Below are positions 31,002-40,736 of a DNA stretch of 64,000 nt, piece by piece (positions within the stretch are counted from its first letter, which is position 1; the number at the start of each line of letters is the position of its first letter). Both the position numbers and the translations under genes were made by a program. The stretch covers positions 124,001 to 188,000 of the forward strand of contig SEBU01000003.1 in the NCBI GenBank assembly GCA_004173475.1, written 5' to 3'. Source of the stretch: Gammaproteobacteria bacterium (GTDB taxonomy: Bacteria > Pseudomonadota > Gammaproteobacteria > Pseudomonadales > Cellvibrionaceae). The notes beneath the pieces were generated by a model. The model was given only the letters and a program-made list of their open reading frames with translations. It did no database searches and was not told the origin of the DNA.

Positions 31002-32219
31002 TCAAAAATTATTCATCGCATAACCTACTACTAAAATTTGCGGTAGCGTAATCAATGGCAAAAAGAGCGCAATCTTCCAGGATTTAGTCACATCTTTTAG
31101 TACCATAACCTCGGTGTAATCCGTAGATACTCCAGCCATCATAAAAGTAAACGCGTTGCCAGGGGCGGCAGCGCGGTTCATTAAGTCTGCTGCTATAGGT
31201 GTTGACCCCTCGGAGCAGACCTCAATGACGGTTGCGGCAATTAACGTAAGTAGAATTCCAATTAAACTTGGACCGAACCACTGCTGAAAAAACTCTACGC
31301 TAACAAAGGTTCTGATTAACGCTGCAAGCACAACGCCGAATAATAACCAGCGTAAAACCATACGCGAACCACTTGCGCCCTCACGAACAATATTTTTAAC
31401 AAGATCAAAAGACCAGACGATCCCTGACCATTGCCTACGTGCCTCGGGCCAGAATTGAAAATTATTATTTAATTCAAAAGCATTAGGATTCGCCGGTAAA
31501 ATTTTGTTATCTACACAACGATCAAATATCCAACCGCTGATGACCGCAATTACCATCGACACTATTATAAAAAGCATGGTCCATTTGAAGCCGATCAGGG
31601 AAAACATGATGAGGGTCAGCGAAAAGGAGTTCCATGGACTGGCGATTAAAAATGCCATCACCTGCCCTAGGCTTGCGCCTTTTTGATAAAGCTTTGTTCC
31701 AACCATCAATATGCCGTGACTACACAGGTCCAATAAAACGCCAGCGGCAGTAGCGCGCAAGATGCCATTGAGGCTGCCGCCTTTGCCCAACACAGATAAG
31801 ACTAAATTCTGAGGGACATTCGCTAGCAAACCTACAAAGACCAATCCAAGTAATACGCCCCACCACATACTGTTAAGCATTTCAAAAATACTGTGCGCAA
31901 AATGCTGCATAAAATCTGGCAATGAGCCGGGAGCAACTAGATGGAACCCGTAAAATACTGTGCATATGGAGAATGAAACCCAAAGCAAATAATCCATACC
32001 TCCAGCGTGCGTATGATCGGTATCGCAGCAGCTCGATTGATGCGCGTGCTCATGGCTGGCATCTACTGGCGTTGAAGGCAAAGGCGTACAGCAGGACGCC
32101 ATCTCATGAGACTGAACCTTTTCCGCAACATTGTGGTCATCTGATTTGCCTGAGTTGCGACAAGATTTTACTTGATCACGTTTAGGTGTTTCAGGTTTGT
32201 CGGTACAACAATCGCTCAT
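31002..32219 (-). CDS. Metal efflux permease (SO_0444-like, Cu/Zn)
   Basis: A 405-aa polytopic membrane permease (PF03773-type permease fold) with about eight hydrophobic segments and paired conserved stretches such as ASPWNSFSLTLIMF and EGSTPIAADLMNRA. The N-terminal cytoplasmic tail is rich in Cys and His (SDCCTDK, MASCCTP, SSCCDTDHTHAGG), suited to metal binding. The longest frame starts at a TTG inside the MerR gene; the ATG at 32219, five bases beyond the merR stop, is preferred. Co-transcription with a CueR-like regulator supports copper or zinc export; the metal is inferred. Confidence 0.85.
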   Translation of the reverse strand: MSDCCTDKPETPKRDQVKSCRNSGKSDDHNVAEKVQSHEMASCCTPLPSTPVDASHEHAHQSSCCDTDHTHAGGMDYLLWVSFSICTVFYGFHLVAPGSLPDFMQHFAHSIFEMLNSMWWGVLLGLVFVGLLANVPQNLVLSVLGKGGSLNGILRATAAGVLLDLCSHGILMVGTKLYQKGASLGQVMAFLIASPWNSFSLTLIMFSLIGFKWTMLFIIVSMVIAVISGWIFDRCVDNKILPANPNAFELNNNFQFWPEARRQWSGIVWSFDLVKNIVREGASGSRMVLRWLLFGVVLAALIRTFVSVEFFQQWFGPSLIGILLTLIAATVIEVCSEGSTPIAADLMNRAAAPGNAFTFMMAGVSTDYTEVMVLKDVTKSWKIALFLPLITLPQILVVGYAMNNF

Positions 32220-32224
32220 AATAT

Positions 32225-32647
32225 TTACTCGACTAGAGTGAAAGGCATGATGGCTGGAGCGGGCTGGGCTAGCGTCTCTATGATCGAGCAATTCGATGAG
32301 TCGTCACCCGCACAACTGTCAGCCATGTCGATTAATACTGATCTCAGCGCTTGTAATTCATGCAGCTGCTTTTCGACTTGTTCAACTTTTTCCAGCACCA
32401 ATGCTTTAACTTGCGAACAGCGACGATTATCGTCACGGTACAAGTCCAGCAATTCTCTGCAAACGTTAAGACTAAAACCCACTGCGCGAGCGCGTTGCAA
32501 AAATCTCAGGTGCTCCACATCGCTCGCAGAATAATCACGGTAATCATTTCCCTCCGTTCGGGCAGGACGTACCAATCCAATTTCTTCGTAGTACCGCAGG
32601 GTTTTTACCGGCAACCCGCTTTTGACTGAAGCTTGGCCAATATTCAT
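32225..32647 (-). CDS. MerR-family metal-responsive regulator, CueR-like
   Basis: 140 aa. The MerR helix-turn-helix is at the start (MNIGQASVKSGLPVKTLRYY), followed by a dimerisation helix and a C-terminal metal loop, CAGDDSSNC. Two cysteines seven residues apart closely match the copper(I) loop of CueR (CPGDDSADC), so Cu(I)/Ag(I)/Au(I) sensing is likely. It is the first gene of an operon with the efflux permease and has a MerR-type promoter upstream with TGGAGG as SD. Confidence 0.9.
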   Translation of the reverse strand: MNIGQASVKSGLPVKTLRYYEEIGLVRPARTEGNDYRDYSASDVEHLRFLQRARAVGFSLNVCRELLDLYRDDNRRCSQVKALVLEKVEQVEKQLHELQALRSVLIDMADSCAGDDSSNCSIIETLAQPAPAIMPFTLVE

Positions 32648-32685
32648 ATCAAGTCCTCCACAACATTCCTCATTCGTTATGAATC

Positions 32686-32716
32686 ATCTTAAACCTGTCA
32701 GTTACTGGATAGTCAA
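32686..32716 (-). promoter_or_regulatory. MerR-type promoter with 19-bp spacer
   Basis: On the minus strand TTGACT (32716-32711) and TAAGAT (32691-32686) are separated by 19 bases that contain an imperfect dyad (TATCCAG ... CTGACAGGT). The over-long spacer is the hallmark of promoters activated by DNA distortion through MerR proteins. It sits 38 bases upstream of the merR start, implying autoregulation of the merR-permease operon. Confidence 0.75.
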
Positions 32717-32932
32717 CAAACTTTTACTCACATCAATGCGAATTTAAATGCATTTTTTATCTTAAGCTGCTTAAAATAATCCTTTTGACGACAAAAAGTT
32801 GCTATTATAGTTCGATTTAACGACATTAATTTTTTAAAAAATCATTTAAAAACAATTGGTTAAAAAGACTTCTTGACAAACTTATTTAATGAACCAAAAT
32901 AAATGAACAAATAACAGTCGGAAGAGTGAAAT

Positions 32933-33160
32933 ATGGAATATCTCGATATAAGCCACGCTGAGTGGCCTAAAATGTGGGACGAATTGGCGAGCTATAAAAT
33001 GAATTCTGGCGACCACTTGTGTATTAATGCGGGCCAGTGTTGGGAGTACATGAGTTCAACGCTTGACCATCATCACTTCCGTCACGCCTGTCATCCACTT
33101 ACTCACCGGGTCGAATATGTCTATATTGAAAGGGCACGGGCAGCAGTCGGCTGGGCGTAG
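32933..33160 (+). CDS. Small hypothetical protein, 75 aa
   Basis: Unrecognised soluble protein rich in His, Trp and Tyr (EWPKMWDEL, LDHHHFRHACHP). Support for it being real: TTGACA at 32873-32878 with a -10-like AAAATA seventeen bases later, then GGAAGAG six to twelve bases before the ATG. No terminator was seen. It stands alone between the metal-efflux operon and the gtrA block. It has no signal peptide or membrane segment. Three Cys and a His cluster might bind metal, but that is speculation. Confidence 0.55.
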   Translation: MEYLDISHAEWPKMWDELASYKMNSGDHLCINAGQCWEYMSSTLDHHHFRHACHPLTHRVEYVYIERARAAVGWA

Positions 33161-33599
33161 CTGGATGAATAGCGTTTTAAATTTTGAAATGTGAGGATAA
33201 TTAGGGTTCCTTAGCTTCCGCCAAATTTTTGTTACAAATAATTTACAGTCCGATATCCATTAATAAGCTGATGAGTGCCTAGGCCTAGCGCAACCGCGAA
33301 ATTTGTTATCGCTCACCCTCGTCTCATCGTGATCCATCGCGAGATAAACCAGCCTATTTTGACAACCATGTTTATTCTCTTGCCACCTTATAAATTTGAA
33401 TTTCCAGCATATGTTGATTTATGCGCAATGACGACTAGCCCGCTTTTTTTAAAATTTTATACAAAAGTCACATACCACAATTAAGCTATTGCGAACACAT
33501 AATCCCTACTACTTTTAGACGAAAAGTATGCTAATGTGCTGCGCTTTTGCGGTAGCGCATTGGCCAGTATTGGCTACATAGCAATTCAGTAGAATAACA
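33161..33599. other. Intergenic region upstream of the gtrA block
   Basis: About 440 bases. A 69-codon frame at 33275 starts with GTG, lacks an SD and is not credible. Near gtrA a stem AATGTGCTGC (33533-33542) with GTAGCGCATT (33552-33561) can form with G-U pairs in the probable leader. Only one GATC was noticed, so an OxyR/Dam phase-variation switch like that of some gtr operons is not apparent. Confidence 0.5.
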
Positions 33600-33995
33600 A
33601 TGAAACGTTTCGCTTTGTTCATAGGTATCGGCGGTATTTCAACACTTATTCAGTTTTTATTACTGATTCTTTTTGTTGAATTTAATCTATTGCCAGAAGT
33701 GGTTGCCTCCGCTGCCGGTTACGTGCTCGCGTCTTTTTTTAGTTACTGGGCGAATTATCATTTTACGTTCGCAAGTAAGCAGAGCCACTGGAAGGCGTAT
33801 CCCAAGTTTGCGTTGACCGTTGGCTTGGGAATGAGTGTCAACACTGTAGTGTTTGCAGGTCTTTTCTTTATATTTGGTCAGCTGTGGCAACCACCTTGGA
33901 TAGAGCCCTACCTTGCAGCACAAGTACTCGCTACTGGTTTTACGCTCGTAGTCAATTTTTTGATGCACAAATTTTGGATTTACAAAGAACACTAA
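33600..33995 (+). CDS. GtrA family membrane protein (putative lipid-linked sugar flippase)
   Basis: 131 aa with four hydrophobic segments, the GtrA fold (KRFALFIGIGGISTLIQFLL at the start, FSYWANYHFTF in the middle, NFLMHKFWIYK at the end). GtrA proteins are proposed to flip undecaprenyl-phosphate-glucose across the inner membrane. It opens a four-gene cassette with a GtrB-like transferase and two GT-C-type membrane proteins. Confidence 0.92.
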   Translation: MKRFALFIGIGGISTLIQFLLLILFVEFNLLPEVVASAAGYVLASFFSYWANYHFTFASKQSHWKAYPKFALTVGLGMSVNTVVFAGLFFIFGQLWQPPWIEPYLAAQVLATGFTLVVNFLMHKFWIYKEH

Positions 33996-34037
33996 AAATA
34001 ATTATCAAATTGCAGTAAATAACAATAGCAACGCAAG

Positions 34038-35321
34038 ATGTTAATCATAAAAGAGATAAGATCAATGAATTACCCTGTGCTCTACGACCCCAACGTACAT
34101 AATCGCGATAAATTTAACCTCCCTTTAGTTTTGCTAATTGTTTTTGTTGCAGCAGTTTTCACTTACATAATATTCTGTATTAAGGGCGGCCTTTATTCGG
34201 ACGAAGGATTCCACGCGCCTCAGATTTGGGTTTACTACTCGGGTGGAACAAAATTTGCCGAGACGATTACTGTACCTCCCACCTACCATTACATTATGGG
34301 ATTTATCGTTCGCCAAATAGGCTACTACAATGATAATTTGCTTAAGCTGATAAGCTTGCTTATTTCATTGCTAACCATACCAGCCTTCTACAAATTAATT
34401 AGCAAGTATCATCCTCAAGATGCAGGTATACGTACTCTGCAACTTTTCTTTTTGCCAATAATGTTCATTTATTATTTTTTAATTTATACCGACATTTGGG
34501 CATTATTATTAATAACGTTAAATTTATATTTCGCCATCAGTAAACGTTACGCTTTATCAGCACTGATCGGCTTGGCTGCTGTTTGTTTACGGCAGGACTC
34601 AGTTATTTGGATAAGCCTGTCATTTTTATGGATTTGTTTTGAAAAGAACAATCCGCACGATCCCTTCCGCGTAAAAGAAGTAATAAAAAATGGCCTGTTA
34701 AAAGGCTGGCTTTATATTCTCGTTTTTATCGCCTTCCTGGCATTTGTAATTTACAACGGCGGTGTTGCAATAGGCGATAAGGATCAACACAACTCCGGAT
34801 CAATGAACTACGGCAACCTTTATATTTTTCTAATTCTTGCATGGTTTTTGTTTTTGCCGCTCAATATTAAGTTGCTACCTGAAATATTAAAATTTTTACG
34901 TAGTCGCTGGAGCGGATTCGCACTGGTTGCCTTTTTTCTGCTTTACATGGGGAGCTTTAAAAACCCTCATGGTTACAACAACACTATGTTTGATTATTTT
35001 CTTCACAATGGTATGGCCCATTTTCTAACGAGCAACATATTGTTGAAGAGCCTTAGCTGTATTCTCGCGGTTTGGATGATACTCACCTTAGTTCTTATGA
35101 AGCTGCCGGATCAACGCTTTAAGTGGGCTCTGTTAATAATTCCATTAGCTGTTGTGAGTCACCCAATGATTGAGCCAAGATATTATTTCCCTGCGTATCT
35201 CGCTATTCATCTGATCCGTCCTGCACTGCCTTCGTCCGTTGAAACAGGAACGCTTGTTTTCTACATCCTCGTTGCAGCCTATGTTGTGTATGGCTCTGTA
35301 TCTGGTCATTTCTTCCTCTAA
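34038..35321 (+). CDS. ALG10/DIE2-like membrane glucosyltransferase, copy 1
   Basis: 427 aa with about ten hydrophobic segments. It carries motifs I associate with eukaryotic ALG10, the Dol-P-Glc alpha-1,2-glucosyltransferase. They are YSDEGFHAPQIW with TVPPTYHY in the first large loop, LIYTDIWAL, RQDSVIWI, the GDKDQHNSG loop and a C-terminal EPRYYFPAYL. Asp-Glu just after the first membrane segment is the expected GT-C catalytic position. A second ATG at 34065 (MNYPVLYD) is an alternative start. The paralogue at 36285 shares every motif. Likely role: glucosyl transfer from a polyprenyl-phosphate donor outside the cytoplasmic membrane; acceptor unknown. Confidence 0.75.
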   Translation: MLIIKEIRSMNYPVLYDPNVHNRDKFNLPLVLLIVFVAAVFTYIIFCIKGGLYSDEGFHAPQIWVYYSGGTKFAETITVPPTYHYIMGFIVRQIGYYNDNLLKLISLLISLLTIPAFYKLISKYHPQDAGIRTLQLFFLPIMFIYYFLIYTDIWALLLITLNLYFAISKRYALSALIGLAAVCLRQDSVIWISLSFLWICFEKNNPHDPFRVKEVIKNGLLKGWLYILVFIAFLAFVIYNGGVAIGDKDQHNSGSMNYGNLYIFLILAWFLFLPLNIKLLPEILKFLRSRWSGFALVAFFLLYMGSFKNPHGYNNTMFDYFLHNGMAHFLTSNILLKSLSCILAVWMILTLVLMKLPDQRFKWALLIIPLAVVSHPMIEPRYYFPAYLAIHLIRPALPSSVETGTLVFYILVAAYVVYGSVSGHFFL

Positions 35322-35342
35322 TTAATATTGGCAAATGAGATC

Positions 35343-36281
35343 ATGAAACAATTACTTTCACTTATCGTACCCATGTACAACGAAGAAGAAGGCATAGCAA
35401 ACTTTTTCTCTGTCATGGAAAACGTATTGGCAAGTGTCGATATGGATTATGAAATTATCTGTGTTGATGATGGATCAAAAGATAATACGCTTGCCTTGCT
35501 AAAACAGAAAAATATTGAAAATAATCGCATTAAAGTCATAGCGTTCTCAAGAAACTTCGGTAAAGAAGCGGCAATGACTGCAGCTATTGATTACTGCTCC
35601 GGTGATGCAATCATTCCGATAGATGCGGACCTTCAAGATCCACCAGAAATTATCGGCGAGATGATTAATCAATGGCGCGCTGGCTTTGATGTAGTCTACG
35701 GAAAGCGTGTTTCGCGTGATGGCGACACAATGATGAAACGTAACACCGCAGGTTGGTTTTACCGACTTTTCAATCGCGTCAGTGATGTAAAAATTCCGGA
35801 GAATGTTGGTGACTATCGCCTTATGGATAAGAAAGTTGTTATAGCAATACGCCAGCTTCCTGAGAAAGACCGATTCATGAAAGGCTTGTTTTGCTGGCCA
35901 GGTTTTAGAAGCACCACGGTTGAATTTGTGCGACAAAATCGTGAGCAAGGAACTACCAAATTTAACTATTGGAAATTATGGAACTTTGCGTTATCTGGCA
36001 TAACTTCATTCAGCACCATTCCAATTCGAATGGGTGTATATCTTGGCTTGAGTGTCTCTGCACTTGCATTTATTTACGGCCTAATCACCATACTTAAAGC
36101 ACTTTTTGGTGGGCCAGACGTACCTGGTTACGCGTCCTTAATGACGATCATGTTATTTGTGGGGGGTATACAGCTATTTTTTATGGGTCTGATGGGAGAG
36201 TACATCGGAAGGATTTACAAAGAAGTTAAAAATCGCCCAATTTATTATGTTGCCGAAGAGCTCGGCTTTACGAAGAAATAA
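35343..36281 (+). CDS. GtrB-type glycosyltransferase family 2 (undecaprenyl-phosphate sugar transferase)
   Basis: 312 aa. The N-terminal GT-A domain has SLIVPMYNEEEG, CVDDGSKDNT and DADLQDPPE, the metal and nucleotide motifs. The RKRVSRDGD-type acceptor loop appears as YGKRVSRDGDT. Two C-terminal transmembrane helices (MGVYLGLSVSALAFIYGL, MTIMLFVGGIQLFFMGLMGEY) give the GtrB/DPM1-like architecture. It should load glucose (or another hexose) from a nucleotide sugar onto undecaprenyl phosphate. The ATG at 35343 is chosen over a TTG five codons earlier. It sits between two ALG10-like genes, three bases from the second. Confidence 0.9.
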   Translation: MKQLLSLIVPMYNEEEGIANFFSVMENVLASVDMDYEIICVDDGSKDNTLALLKQKNIENNRIKVIAFSRNFGKEAAMTAAIDYCSGDAIIPIDADLQDPPEIIGEMINQWRAGFDVVYGKRVSRDGDTMMKRNTAGWFYRLFNRVSDVKIPENVGDYRLMDKKVVIAIRQLPEKDRFMKGLFCWPGFRSTTVEFVRQNREQGTTKFNYWKLWNFALSGITSFSTIPIRMGVYLGLSVSALAFIYGLITILKALFGGPDVPGYASLMTIMLFVGGIQLFFMGLMGEYIGRIYKEVKNRPIYYVAEELGFTKK

Positions 36282-36284
36282 ACA

Positions 36285-37532
36285 GTGAACGACTACGCCA
36301 ATCAATCGACAAAATCTGTACTTCCACAAACGGTAGTGCTCGCATTAATTGTGTTTATTACAGCAATTTTTGGATATTTTATCATTAGCTTGAATACGAC
36401 TTTACATGCCGATGAAGGTTTTCACGCGGGACAAATATGGCTGTTTTATAGTGGTGAAGACAGGTTAGCAGGCAACATTACTGTACCGCCAACATACCAT
36501 TATATTATTGGGAAGATTGTAAAATTCACTGGCGGCTACCACGACAATCTCCTCAGATTTATTAGTTTATGTATAGGGCTGTTAAGCGTTTCGGTAATTT
36601 ACCTCGCCGCCAAATTCTATAATGGTGAAAGAGCGTGGGAAAAAACTTTGCTTGTTTATTTCACCCCTTTAATTTTCCCTTATTTTTTCGTGCTCTACAC
36701 CGATATTTGGTCACTCGGCGCTATAGCCTTGTCTTTGCTATTAGCACTGAAAAGACGATTTTATTTTGCAGGGCTAGCTGGTGGATTAGCCGTACTTATC
36801 CGTCAAGATAATGTGGCGTGGATAGGTTTAATTTATTTATATGTTTGTTTTGAACTTATTAACAAAATAGACAAGACAAACTTGCTTCGCTTTGTCCACA
36901 ACGCATTTACAAAAGGCGCAGTTTTTAACCTTGTATTTCTGGGATTTCTTGCGTTTGTTTATATAAATGGGGGCGTAGCTATTGGGGATAGCGAGGCCCA
37001 CAAAATATCATCGTTCAACTTGTCGAATTTGCACGTGTTTTTAATGTGTTGCTGGTTCCTTTTCCTACCCTTTCACATACAACAGATTCCAGTCATTCTT
37101 CCGCTGTTACGTAGACCTGTCACAATTATCTGCCTATTTATCGGATTTGTTGTGTATGTGGGCACGCTAAAGAATATCCATTCCTACAATCAAATCATGT
37201 ACGATTATTTTATTCACAACGCATTAATACATTTTTTGACTGATTTTCCATTAATAAAAATATTCTCCTTCTTTCTTGTAGCTTGGACCTTGCTAAGTCT
37301 AATTAAAATGCCGCTACCTGATCGCCGTTGGGGCTTTTTAATCCCCGTTGCAATTTTGGCAGCTATAACTCATCCGCTAATAGAGCCCAGATACTACATG
37401 CCAGCATTTTTCCTCATTCATATTTTGCGCCCAAGGCTCTCAACAGAAGTCGAGTTTTTTAACATATTTCTATACATACTCGCTTCAGCGTATATTTTAT
37501 ATGGCACTACACAAGAACTGATTTTTCTATAA
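36285..37532 (+). CDS. ALG10/DIE2-like membrane glucosyltransferase, copy 2
   Basis: 415-aa paralogue of the protein at 34038: HADEGFHAGQIW, TVPPTYHYIIG, VLYTDIWSL, IRQDNVAWIG, GDSEAHKIS and EPRYYMPAF all align, as does the late segment KNIHSYNQ. The start is GTG at 36285, three bases after the GtrB stop, so co-translation is likely. Retention of the candidate catalytic Asp-Glu in both copies suggests both are active, possibly adding successive residues or acting on different acceptors. It ends convergent with the ybbP-like gene, 20 bases apart, with no obvious terminator. Confidence 0.75.
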   Translation: MNDYANQSTKSVLPQTVVLALIVFITAIFGYFIISLNTTLHADEGFHAGQIWLFYSGEDRLAGNITVPPTYHYIIGKIVKFTGGYHDNLLRFISLCIGLLSVSVIYLAAKFYNGERAWEKTLLVYFTPLIFPYFFVLYTDIWSLGAIALSLLLALKRRFYFAGLAGGLAVLIRQDNVAWIGLIYLYVCFELINKIDKTNLLRFVHNAFTKGAVFNLVFLGFLAFVYINGGVAIGDSEAHKISSFNLSNLHVFLMCCWFLFLPFHIQQIPVILPLLRRPVTIICLFIGFVVYVGTLKNIHSYNQIMYDYFIHNALIHFLTDFPLIKIFSFFLVAWTLLSLIKMPLPDRRWGFLIPVAILAAITHPLIEPRYYMPAFFLIHILRPRLSTEVEFFNIFLYILASAYILYGTTQELIFL

Positions 37533-37552
37533 ATAGAGTTGAAGATCCGAAA

Positions 37553-40042
37553 TTAGGTTGCATCTCGTAGCACAACCATTGGTGGAGTGCTTACGACTGG
37601 CCTGCAACATATTACACCCAGCGCACCTATAAAAATTGCGCTGCCAACAGGAGCTATAAACCAGTAAATAAGATGCGCCTTTATCGGATTATTAAAAACA
37701 AATTTTTGCATACTAAACAAAAGCGCTTCCGCACCGAATATAGCAATTAGTCCCGCCAGGATTCCCAACACTACAAATTCAACTAACACGCTGCCTAAAA
37801 TTAATTTCTGTGGGCTACCTAAGGCTCTTAGTAACCCAGCCTCTTGTTTTCTGCTATCAATACTACTCATAACAGCCGCAAACAAAACCATCGCCCCTGC
37901 TGCCAGAGTGAGAAGTAATACGAGGCCGACACCGTCACTTACCTGATTAACTATCGAACGTATTTGCTCGATGATCCGATCCAATTCCATGACCGTTATA
38001 GTGGGATATTTATGCAACAATTGATTAATAAATATTTTCTGATCCGGTGCCAGGAAGATACTGGTCATAAATGTGGGTGAAAACTCTTTTAGAGACTGCG
38101 GCTCGAAAATAAAAAAGAAGTTTGGGCGCATGGATTTCCAATTTAATGTTCTGATGCTCGCTACCTCTGCCTCAAGCTCCAACCCCCCTAATGAAAATAG
38201 CAACTTATCGCCAAGAGCAAGGTTCAAACTTTTTGCTACAGCTTCTTCTACAGATACTCCCGGAAGGGAGGATTTAGTCCATTTATCCCACCACTCGCCC
38301 TTAATAATTTTATTGTCATCAGCGAGCGTTTCAGATTCCGTTAAATTAACTTCGCGTTGCAGCGCGTTGGCATTTTTTGCCATTTCATCGTCGGGAACCT
38401 TTCCATTAATTTGCATTAAACGTCCACGAATCATGGGGTACAAAGGCGCGCTAGTAATTTTTTCTGCCGCAAGTACAGCCGAAACGTCGTTCACATCAGA
38501 AGGAGAAATATTTATCAAAAAATGATTTGGTGAATTCACAGGTATCTGAGCACGCCAATCATCTATGAGCGATGTGCGCAAAATTGTTAATGTCAGAAGC
38601 AGCATAATGGCTACGGAAAACACCATGATCTGCACTAGGCTTTGGCTTTTACGCCGTTGCAGATTTGCAAACGCTAAACGACCAAAACCACCCAAGCCTT
38701 GGGAAAGCTTTTTGCTTATTGCAAGTAACAGCCAGGAAAATGCAAACGAAATTATCACTATAATAATTAGTGCCGCGCTGACGCTAGCCGTTAATCTCAG
38801 GTTTTGGCTGAAAAGCGCAACAAGAAAAATAACTGCAACAAATGCCAATGCAGCTTGAATCCACACTTGCAAACCGCTAATTGCTAATTCTTTGCGCAGA
38901 ATTTTCAAAGGAGGAATGGCTGGTAGAAACCAAAGCGCAGGTAAAGCAAAAAAGGTAATGCAGATTAGCCCACTGACAAAGCTAAAAAGGTAAGGCGAAA
39001 GATGAGCAGAATTTAAAACGAAATGGTAATTTTTTTCCAGATTTAAGGCTACGAATGTTTGTATGCCATATCCAATAAGCAACCCAAAAACTGAAGCGAT
39101 AACGCCTAGCACAAATAATTGCGTGAAGTATAAACGTCGGATTTTTGAAGCACTCACACCGAGGCTTTTCATAAGCGCAACTTGATTGGTATGGCGGTCT
39201 GAAAATTGACGCGCCGCAATGGCAATCGCAACACCTGCTAAAAGCACCGCAATCACTGCAGCAAAAAGTAAAAAGTTTTTACCTGACTCAAGCGTTTTGG
39301 ATAAGCGATCCTGGCTGCTATTAATATCCTGAAGTTTTTCATGTTTGGTTAATTGAGGTTTAAGCCATGCGAGAAAATTTTCCAGATCGTCGCCTTTGTC
39401 GCTTGCTAAAAGCCACGAGTAATCAACCCTACTTCCCGCTTTAATTACTTGAGTTGCAGGCACATCGTCTATATTCATCAAAATACGCGGGGATATTGAT
39501 GAAAAAGGATTTCGACTTTCTGGCTCACGAATTAAAACTTGGGTAACTATTAACTCCAATTCGCCAATGGAAAGCTTCTCACCCAACTGAACTTTTAATT
39601 GCGCCAACAATCTGGAATCCAGCCAAATCTCACCGCGAGCGGGAGCATATTCAGCACGTTTAATGTCGACTGGATTTACCGCAAAAGAAACCTGACTAAT
39701 ATCTAACTGTCCGCGCAATGGGTAGTGCCTTTCGACAGCCTTAATTGCTGCAAGGTGCATTTCCTCGCCTGCGAAAACCATAGATGCAAATTCAATAGTT
39801 CTTGCCTGTTGGAGTCCTGCAGCGTCTGCTTGGTCAATCCATTCCTGACTGATAGATTTACTACTTTCCACAACAATATCAGCGCCCAACAAAGCGTTAC
39901 TTTGCCTCATCAATGTGGAGCCCAATCTATCGGTAAAAATGGATATAGCACTAAGAACAGCCACCGCAAGCACTATTGAAATGCTTAAAAGTTTCAGCTC
40001 ACCACTACGCCAGTTTCGAATAAGTAAATTTAACGCGAGCAT
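37553..40042 (-). CDS. ybbP: FtsX-like ABC transporter permease, YbbP family
   Basis: 829 aa with ten hydrophobic segments in the MacB/FtsX duplicated arrangement: one N-terminal segment with a large periplasmic domain, then clusters around residues 250-480 and 700-820. The longest frame has 17 extra residues, but the ATG at 40042 has AAGGAG six bases upstream and yields the family start MLALNLLIRNWRSGEL. It is paired with the ATPase gene 16 bases upstream. YbbAP acts on hydrophobic substrates next to TesA in E. coli. Confidence 0.92.
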   Translation of the reverse strand: MLALNLLIRNWRSGELKLLSISIVLAVAVLSAISIFTDRLGSTLMRQSNALLGADIVVESSKSISQEWIDQADAAGLQQARTIEFASMVFAGEEMHLAAIKAVERHYPLRGQLDISQVSFAVNPVDIKRAEYAPARGEIWLDSRLLAQLKVQLGEKLSIGELELIVTQVLIREPESRNPFSSISPRILMNIDDVPATQVIKAGSRVDYSWLLASDKGDDLENFLAWLKPQLTKHEKLQDINSSQDRLSKTLESGKNFLLFAAVIAVLLAGVAIAIAARQFSDRHTNQVALMKSLGVSASKIRRLYFTQLFVLGVIASVFGLLIGYGIQTFVALNLEKNYHFVLNSAHLSPYLFSFVSGLICITFFALPALWFLPAIPPLKILRKELAISGLQVWIQAALAFVAVIFLVALFSQNLRLTASVSAALIIIVIISFAFSWLLLAISKKLSQGLGGFGRLAFANLQRRKSQSLVQIMVFSVAIMLLLTLTILRTSLIDDWRAQIPVNSPNHFLINISPSDVNDVSAVLAAEKITSAPLYPMIRGRLMQINGKVPDDEMAKNANALQREVNLTESETLADDNKIIKGEWWDKWTKSSLPGVSVEEAVAKSLNLALGDKLLFSLGGLELEAEVASIRTLNWKSMRPNFFFIFEPQSLKEFSPTFMTSIFLAPDQKIFINQLLHKYPTITVMELDRIIEQIRSIVNQVSDGVGLVLLLTLAAGAMVLFAAVMSSIDSRKQEAGLLRALGSPQKLILGSVLVEFVVLGILAGLIAIFGAEALLFSMQKFVFNNPIKAHLIYWFIAPVGSAIFIGALGVICCRPVVSTPPMVVLRDAT

Positions 40043-40058
40043 ATTTTTCTCCTTATAT

Positions 40059-40736
40059 TTATTGAGAAACAATAGCGCCGGCTGACAATTCAATATGCTT
40101 GTGGCATAGAGACGCCAAACGCTGCTCGTGAGTGATTAATATTAAAGTGGTGCCTTGCGTTCGATTCAATTCAAATAATAAATCAATAATTTTTGCGCCC
40201 GTTGCGCTATCTAAATTTCCTGTGGGCTCATCAGCAAATAAAATATTAGGTTGACTCGCAAATGCTCTCGCTATAGCGACGCGCTGCTGTTCGCCGCCCG
40301 ATAGCTGTTGTGGGTAATGATTTAATCGTTTTTCCAAACCGACATGCTGCAAAAAGTTTATTGCCGAATTTCTTGCTTGTTTGTTGCCCCTAAGTTCCAG
40401 GGGCAACATCACATTTTCCAGCGCAGTTAGGCCCGGTAGTAATTGGAATGATTGAAAAATGAATCCGACATTTTCGGCTCGAACCCGTGCCCTCCCCTCT
40501 TCGTCCATTGCGGTAAGGCAATGCCCGCTCAAATATACGTCTCCGGTTGAGGGAACATCTAATCCTGCCAAAATTCCCAAAAGAGTGGACTTCCCAGATC
40601 CTGAAGCACCTGTAATAGCAACAGATTCACCTGAGGTCACCGTTAACGACATGGGTTGTAATATTTCCAACTCACCTTCTTGCGTAACGACCTTTTTGGT
40701 AATTGCACGAACATCAAGCACAAACGCGGATGACAT
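40059..40736 (-). CDS. ybbA: ABC transporter ATP-binding protein, YbbA family
   Basis: 225 aa. Walker A GASGSGKST, signature LSGGEQQRVAIARAF, Walker B ILFADEPTGNLD, H-loop ITHEQ. LolD/MacB/YbbA subfamily. Divergent from tesA with a 168-base shared control region, the arrangement found in E. coli. Confidence 0.95.
   Translation of the reverse strand: MSSAFVLDVRAITKKVVTQEGELEILQPMSLTVTSGESVAITGASGSGKSTLLGILAGLDVPSTGDVYLSGHCLTAMDEEGRARVRAENVGFIFQSFQLLPGLTALENVMLPLELRGNKQARNSAINFLQHVGLEKRLNHYPQQLSGGEQQRVAIARAFASQPNILFADEPTGNLDSATGAKIIDLLFELNRTQGTTLILITHEQRLASLCHKHIELSAGAIVSQ

Follow-up and report, generated by a model that had tools for sequence, protein, structure and literature searches.

A predicted Gtr-type glucosylation cassette with two divergent ALG10-family proteins at a variable site in a Cellvibrionaceae genome

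What does a bacterium do with two relatives of ALG10, a eukaryotic enzyme of N-glycan assembly whose family is known mainly from animals, plants and fungi? The question is raised by a four-gene cassette in a 64,000-nucleotide stretch of DNA (the window; assembly GCA_004173475.1, contig SEBU01000003.1, positions 124,001 to 188,000) from a gammaproteobacterium of the family Cellvibrionaceae. An earlier note, made from the letters of the window, had reported four plus-strand genes here, and open reading frames (ORFs) and Pfam agree: gtrA (33600-33995) is followed by a first ALG10-like gene (copy 1; 34038-35321), by gtrB, encoding a family 2 glycosyltransferase (GT2; 35328-36281), and by a second ALG10-like gene (copy 2; 36285-37532). 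We consider it likely, with a probability of about 0.75, that these genes specify a Gtr-type three-component system for periplasmic glucosylation, whose acceptor-specific component is a glycosyltransferase of the GT-C fold and the ALG10 family, present in two divergent copies. Because the gaps between the genes are only 42, 6 and 3 bp, the analysis suggests that the cassette is a single transcript. The start codon of gtrB is TTG, with an in-frame ATG five codons downstream, and an Rfam scan of 32000-38000 gave no match.

By sequence, both ALG10-like proteins are placed in the DIE2/ALG10 family (PF04922), and the profile search that the earlier note had called for thus upholds its family placement. 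Copy 1 scores 119 bits (E = 4e-34) and copy 2 scores 103.4 bits (E = 2.2e-29) against a curated Pfam cut-off of 27 bits; in the whole-genome profile search the matches cover positions 5-389 and 6-389 of the 391 in the profile. The earlier note had named placement among ArnT or PMT proteins, with no ALG10 similarity, as the outcome that would speak against it. The PMT, PMT_2 and ArnT models matched neither window protein at E values up to 1, and of all Pfam families PF04922 alone passes its cut-off for both. The suspicion that PMT/ArnT-type proteins have been misread as ALG10 draws on the common fold of GT-C enzymes, on structural matches headed by PMT and oligosaccharyltransferase (OST), and on a distant relative (L023) with a PMT_2 match below the cut-off of that family. 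With PF04922 alone above cut-off and matched along nearly its whole profile in both proteins, and with relatives in Pseudomonadota, a Nitrospirales metagenome-assembled genome (MAG) and a Gottesmanbacteria MAG also passing its cut-off (three of these were scanned against all Pfam, with no other family above cut-off), we regard this explanation as largely refuted and leave it hardly any probability. An NCBIfam scan found no match for GtrA or either ALG10 protein, and its GT2 matches fell below their cut-offs.

The predicted model of copy 1 has a GT-C fold, with PMT and OST as its best structural matches. Among the matches listed no chain is described as ALG10, which does not indicate a different fold, and when the sequences of solved structures were searched, neither copy 1 nor a profile built from five sequences returned anything meaningful. 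The model contains 14 helices of at least 13 residues, a number that is not itself a count of membrane segments; for eukaryotic ALG10, the available text of PMC6801728 proposes 13 membrane segments, and the 10 segments claimed earlier for the window proteins need correcting. The six motifs quoted by the earlier note are each present once in copy 1 and once in copy 2. Asp55-Glu56 of copy 1, invariant across 12 bacterial sequences and located shortly past the first long predicted helix (28-47), is a candidate catalytic acidic pair in what would be the first external loop. The eukaryotic enzyme (CAZy GT59), which depends on dolichyl phosphate glucose (Dol-P-Glc) and makes an alpha-1,2 transfer to the N-glycan precursor, a lipid-linked Glc2Man9 glycan, has the same Pfam family, GT-C fold and acidic pair in a presumed first external loop, and a polyprenyl-phosphate-glucose donor is expected for the window proteins too. 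Unlike it, the window proteins are bacterial and linked to gtrA and gtrB, and no Glc2Man9 acceptor is expected for them.

For the donor, the GT2 protein (PF00535, E = 4.8e-32; phrog_841, E = 3.7e-117) is a near full-length homologue, over residues 10-313 and with E = 9.5e-115, of Synechocystis GtrB sll0501 (5ekp), which according to the accessible part of PMC4728340 makes undecaprenyl phosphate glucose (UndP-Glc); the difference is that the window protein is encoded inside an ALG10 cassette. Its similarity to the enzyme for 4-deoxy-4-formamido-L-arabinose (L-Ara4FN; E = 7.3e-44) is far weaker. We therefore name it GtrB, with UndP-Glc synthesis as its predicted activity. GtrA is a small membrane protein (PF04138, E = 2e-19; phrog_2224, GtrA-like, E = 4.5e-06), and the presumed UndP-glucose flippase; the search of the genome found no second PF04138 match. 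In the mechanism that we propose, GtrB would charge undecaprenyl phosphate with glucose at the cytoplasmic face, as judged from homology to a tested enzyme; GtrA, as a member of its family, would flip the product across the membrane; and each ALG10-like enzyme, going by fold, family and gene linkage, would pass the glucose, on the periplasmic side, to a surface glycan that is either lipid-linked or finished. A GT2 that makes a different polyprenyl-phosphate sugar, with the ALG10-like proteins transferring that sugar instead, is improbable. Other three-component systems do serve galactose and pentofuranoses, as the consulted portions of PMC11127046 describe, and homology alone does not give GT2 specificity; the contrast between the two E values and the use of Dol-P-Glc by ALG10 (from the same part of PMC6801728) nonetheless favour glucose. 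As far as PMC11127046 could be consulted, the pentofuranose systems (GT136) follow the same logic of donor synthase, flippase and GT-C enzyme, and the window cassette differs from them in donor enzyme, sugar and GT-C family.

The GtrA/GtrB/GtrC systems that glucosylate O-antigen in Shigella and Salmonella, and those of the phages of these bacteria, are alike in having a GtrA flippase, a GtrB UndP-Glc synthase and a variable GT-C third component; the window cassette departs from them in that its third component is of the PF04922/ALG10 type and is present twice. We compared the site of the cassette across the genus. Its left edge is a small ORF of 75 amino acids (32933-33160, plus strand), which has no part in the proposed mechanism and no Pfam family at E values up to 1, and which is 59-87% identical at 14 of the 17 loci searched. 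The right edge is a large permease-like protein (37553-40093, minus strand; ABC-type by eye), matched in all 21 genomes of the genus. Of the 20 further genomes of the genus, 14 had this right flank fetched for comparison (G002, G005, G007, G010, G019 and G020 were left out). At 12 of these 14 loci there is a gtrA (43-65% identical) with a GT2 that is 35-37% identical to that of the window, and at 11 of the 12 the small ORF and the permease enclose the pair, which is also the arrangement in the window; L108 and L109 have no gtrA and no GT2. ALG10 is found at none of the 14. Proteins of about 500-800 amino acids, partly GT-C-like, accompany gtrA and the GT2 instead (Pfam was run on the proteins of six loci, and the others were judged by size and place). 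PMT_2 passes its cut-off in L102 and L103 and gives a weaker match, below cut-off, in L105; PMT narrowly misses its own cut-off in L107; and two of the large proteins have no Pfam match. An NPCBM/NEW2 domain occurs in large proteins at the gtr site of L099, L102, L107 and L111. A MATE gene usually comes next (by Pfam in L099, by similar starts elsewhere); the window has none there.

Since 12 of the 14 same-genus loci hold gtrA, another GT2 and other large proteins, and none holds ALG10, the third component is swapped at one conserved site, where both GT2 type and transferase of the window differ from those of its relatives. This agrees with the earlier suggestion that ALG10-family enzymes fill the variable GtrC role. 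According to the part of PMC3688519 available, Salmonella gtr operons also recur at fixed loci; in Salmonella the GtrC families vary most and GtrA and GtrB vary little. The swap at the window site is wider than that, because the GT2 type changes too and not mainly GtrC. The same portion of PMC3688519 describes a four-GATC Dam/OxyR switch for Salmonella gtr; the window, in contrast, shows no sign of one, with a single GATC (33331) between merR and gtrA.

A survey of gene order, proposed by the earlier note, extended the linkage beyond the genus: the family has 15 further genomes with PF04922, and in 11 of them gtrA and gtrB lie with ALG10 in the fetched stretch. These 11 are eight genomes of genus g39 together with G734, G788 and G710, and their gene orders differ. 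In nine of them (g39 and G710) the genes run ALG10, DUF2298, gtrB, gtrA, and GtrB is 64-69% identical to that of the window. G734 has PMT_2, gtrA, gtrB and ALG10 in that order, with a GtrB of 50% identity; G788 has a protein with a PMT_2 match below cut-off, gtrA, a piece of GtrB and, further on, two ALG10 copies, in frames that look broken. Each of the other four family genomes (G717-G719 and G786) has a GtrB of 66-69% identity elsewhere in the genome, in G717-G719 beside gtrA and near the same permease. G718 and G719 carry a gtrB-then-gtrA pair beyond the small ORF and a MerR-like gene, that is, in the same neighbourhood and a different slot, and in G786 ALG10 is at a contig end and the 69% GtrB on a short contig. 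DUF2298 proteins adjoin gtrB and gtrA in L018, L020, L050, L052-L056, L062 and L135 (assigned by Pfam in L018, L062 and L135 and by sequence clustering in the others; the L050 copy is split over two frames), which suggests that DUF2298 is another third component.

Several observations weigh against the proposed system. ALG10 stands alone, apart from gtrA and gtrB, in G717-G719, where gtrA and a GtrB of 65-66% identity lie a few kb from the same permease. Outside the family the linkage is weaker: in the stretches examined, gtrA is beside ALG10 in none of the eight PF04922 genomes. A DPM1-like GT2 adjoins ALG10 in three of these (G793, G1128 and G790), and in L024 (G789) there is only a partial GT2 match about 7.5 kb from ALG10. 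A close GtrB elsewhere in the genome occurs outside the family only in G257 (51%, accompanied by gtrA and two DUF2298-like proteins) and G792 (47%); that of G790 is 36% identical, none of the matches in G051, G789 and G1128 exceeds 40% and some of these are short, and the search at 1e-10 found no GtrB elsewhere in G791 or G793. For ALG10-free genomes, the lack of a GtrB of the 66-69% type was seen at the 14 same-genus loci. The ALG10 kinship itself is drawn from the PF04922 profile, and we infer the activity, the donor used by the ALG10-like proteins, the acceptor, the linkage and the topology. The low GC content of the ALG10 genes, finally, is no evidence of transfer.

The earlier note had called the block AT-rich, and the low GC of both ALG10 genes is real: at 0.389 (copy 1) and 0.382 (copy 2) they are third-lowest and second-lowest among 54 window ORFs (mean 0.444). 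What this was taken to imply does not follow, as GC at third codon positions (GC3) is ordinary (0.421 and 0.382; window mean 0.395, SD 0.040). Because the genes are low in GC and ordinary in GC3, the AT-richness lies in codon positions 1 and 2, as expected of hydrophobic proteins. A foreign island deduced from low GC was rejected on the same ground. That the cassette is a recently acquired phage-type serotype-conversion island is very unlikely. The presence of PF04922 in one genome of 21 in the genus and the PHROG relatives of GtrA and GtrB would fit such an origin; however, neither ALG10 copy has a PHROG match, 51 stretches of viral contigs that matched a pattern encode no ALG10 relative, GC3 is unremarkable, and gtrA with a GT2 occupies the same site at 12 of the 14 same-genus loci fetched.

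Why should one cassette carry two ALG10-family genes? The copies are 45-46% identical to each other. A tree of 32 rows joins copy 1 to the lone ALG10 of G717-G719 (support 97/94) and leaves copy 2 outside that group. The tree omits fragments of up to 330 amino acids (including the broken Salinibius gene and the contig-end copy of G786) and the duplicates L025 and L029; it retains the 243-residue fragment L131 and the G788 pieces of 354 and 336 residues, whose frames look broken, and five long branches make the distant placements unsure. On the gene tree the copies appear as old paralogues that parted before copy 1 split from the G717-G719 proteins, or they may derive from separate acquisitions; under either origin, they are not a fresh duplicate. 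Because they are old paralogues, the two may differ in acceptor site or linkage. They would then serve two acceptor sites or linkages, or else two successive additions.

The likeliest acceptor would be a polysaccharide intermediate that the genome makes from its own clusters, either O-antigen, which is the leading guess, or some other. The genome encodes two Wzy_C/O-antigen-ligase-type proteins, one at C58:73.8-74.2 kb, near Glycos_transf_4 and Polysacc_synt_2 proteins and about 83 kb from the cassette, the other within an apparent exopolysaccharide cluster. It is possible, though on balance unlikely, that the ALG10-like enzymes, by the same donor route, instead modify a protein, secreted or at the surface, or some glycan that is not O-antigen. 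GT-C relatives such as PMT share the fold and act on proteins, PMT_2 and NPCBM proteins occur at the same site in relatives, and the second Wzy_C gene sits among apparent exopolysaccharide genes. O-antigen or a similar intermediate is favoured by the lipid-linked glycans on which ALG10 and classical Gtr enzymes act, according to the available sections of PMC6801728 and PMC11127046, and by the O-antigen-ligase-type gene near a Glycos_transf_4 gene.

How widespread are such proteins? The family and genus searches apart, our whole-genome searches are samples of larger groups, and tallies count the query genomes themselves. PF04922 above cut-off is rare, at 16/144 genomes in the family, 5/293 in the order sample, 2/369 in the class sample, 1/398 in the phylum sample, 1/148 around a Nitrospirales MAG and 2/286 around a Gottesmanbacteria MAG; of the 21 genomes in the genus, that of the window alone has it, and 0/14 control genomes matched in the group searches. 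A scan of genome contigs found seven PF04922 loci, in Gottesmanbacteria, Nitrospirales, Salinibius, Wenzhouxiangella, two gammaproteobacterial MAGs and a Pseudomonadales MAG. G792 has four copies close to one another, and G793 and G788 have two each. Among individual loci, a gammaproteobacterial MAG has four ALG10-family genes within an 8-kb stretch (L028 1327-9125), and the gene of Salinibius halmophilus (L022 8880-10142) is broken by an in-frame stop in that assembly. L019 9236-10483 (G241) and L021 9007-10254 (G319) are a second, distant ALG10-family gene beside a large membrane protein, which in L019 is PTPS_related by Pfam.

The consulted part of a 2016 survey of N-glycosylation evolution (PMC4973528) states that Alg10 and the other lumenal transferases "appear to be unique to eukaryotes", and that distant prokaryotic relatives are mostly PMT- or DUF2029-type. 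Our literature search, which covered open-access literature only, found no description of a bacterial ALG10; because the Pfam model finds them easily, bacterial PF04922 sequences as such may already be listed in public databases. We put forward tentatively, and at rather less than even odds, that a diverse bacterial ALG10 clade exists, that it is either the sister group or the source of the eukaryotic enzyme which completes the N-glycan precursor with its last glucose, that with GtrA and GtrB it forms an interchangeable module for surface-glycan glucosylation, and that each of the two window copies adds a different glucose. Possible third components from other little-known membrane families, DUF2298 and NPCBM-bearing proteins, are also suggested by the variable site. 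Linked to UndP-Glc genes, a bacterial ALG10 group would offer a genetically tractable route to the donor and acceptor logic of ALG10, and would bear on where the terminal glucose of N-glycans came from.

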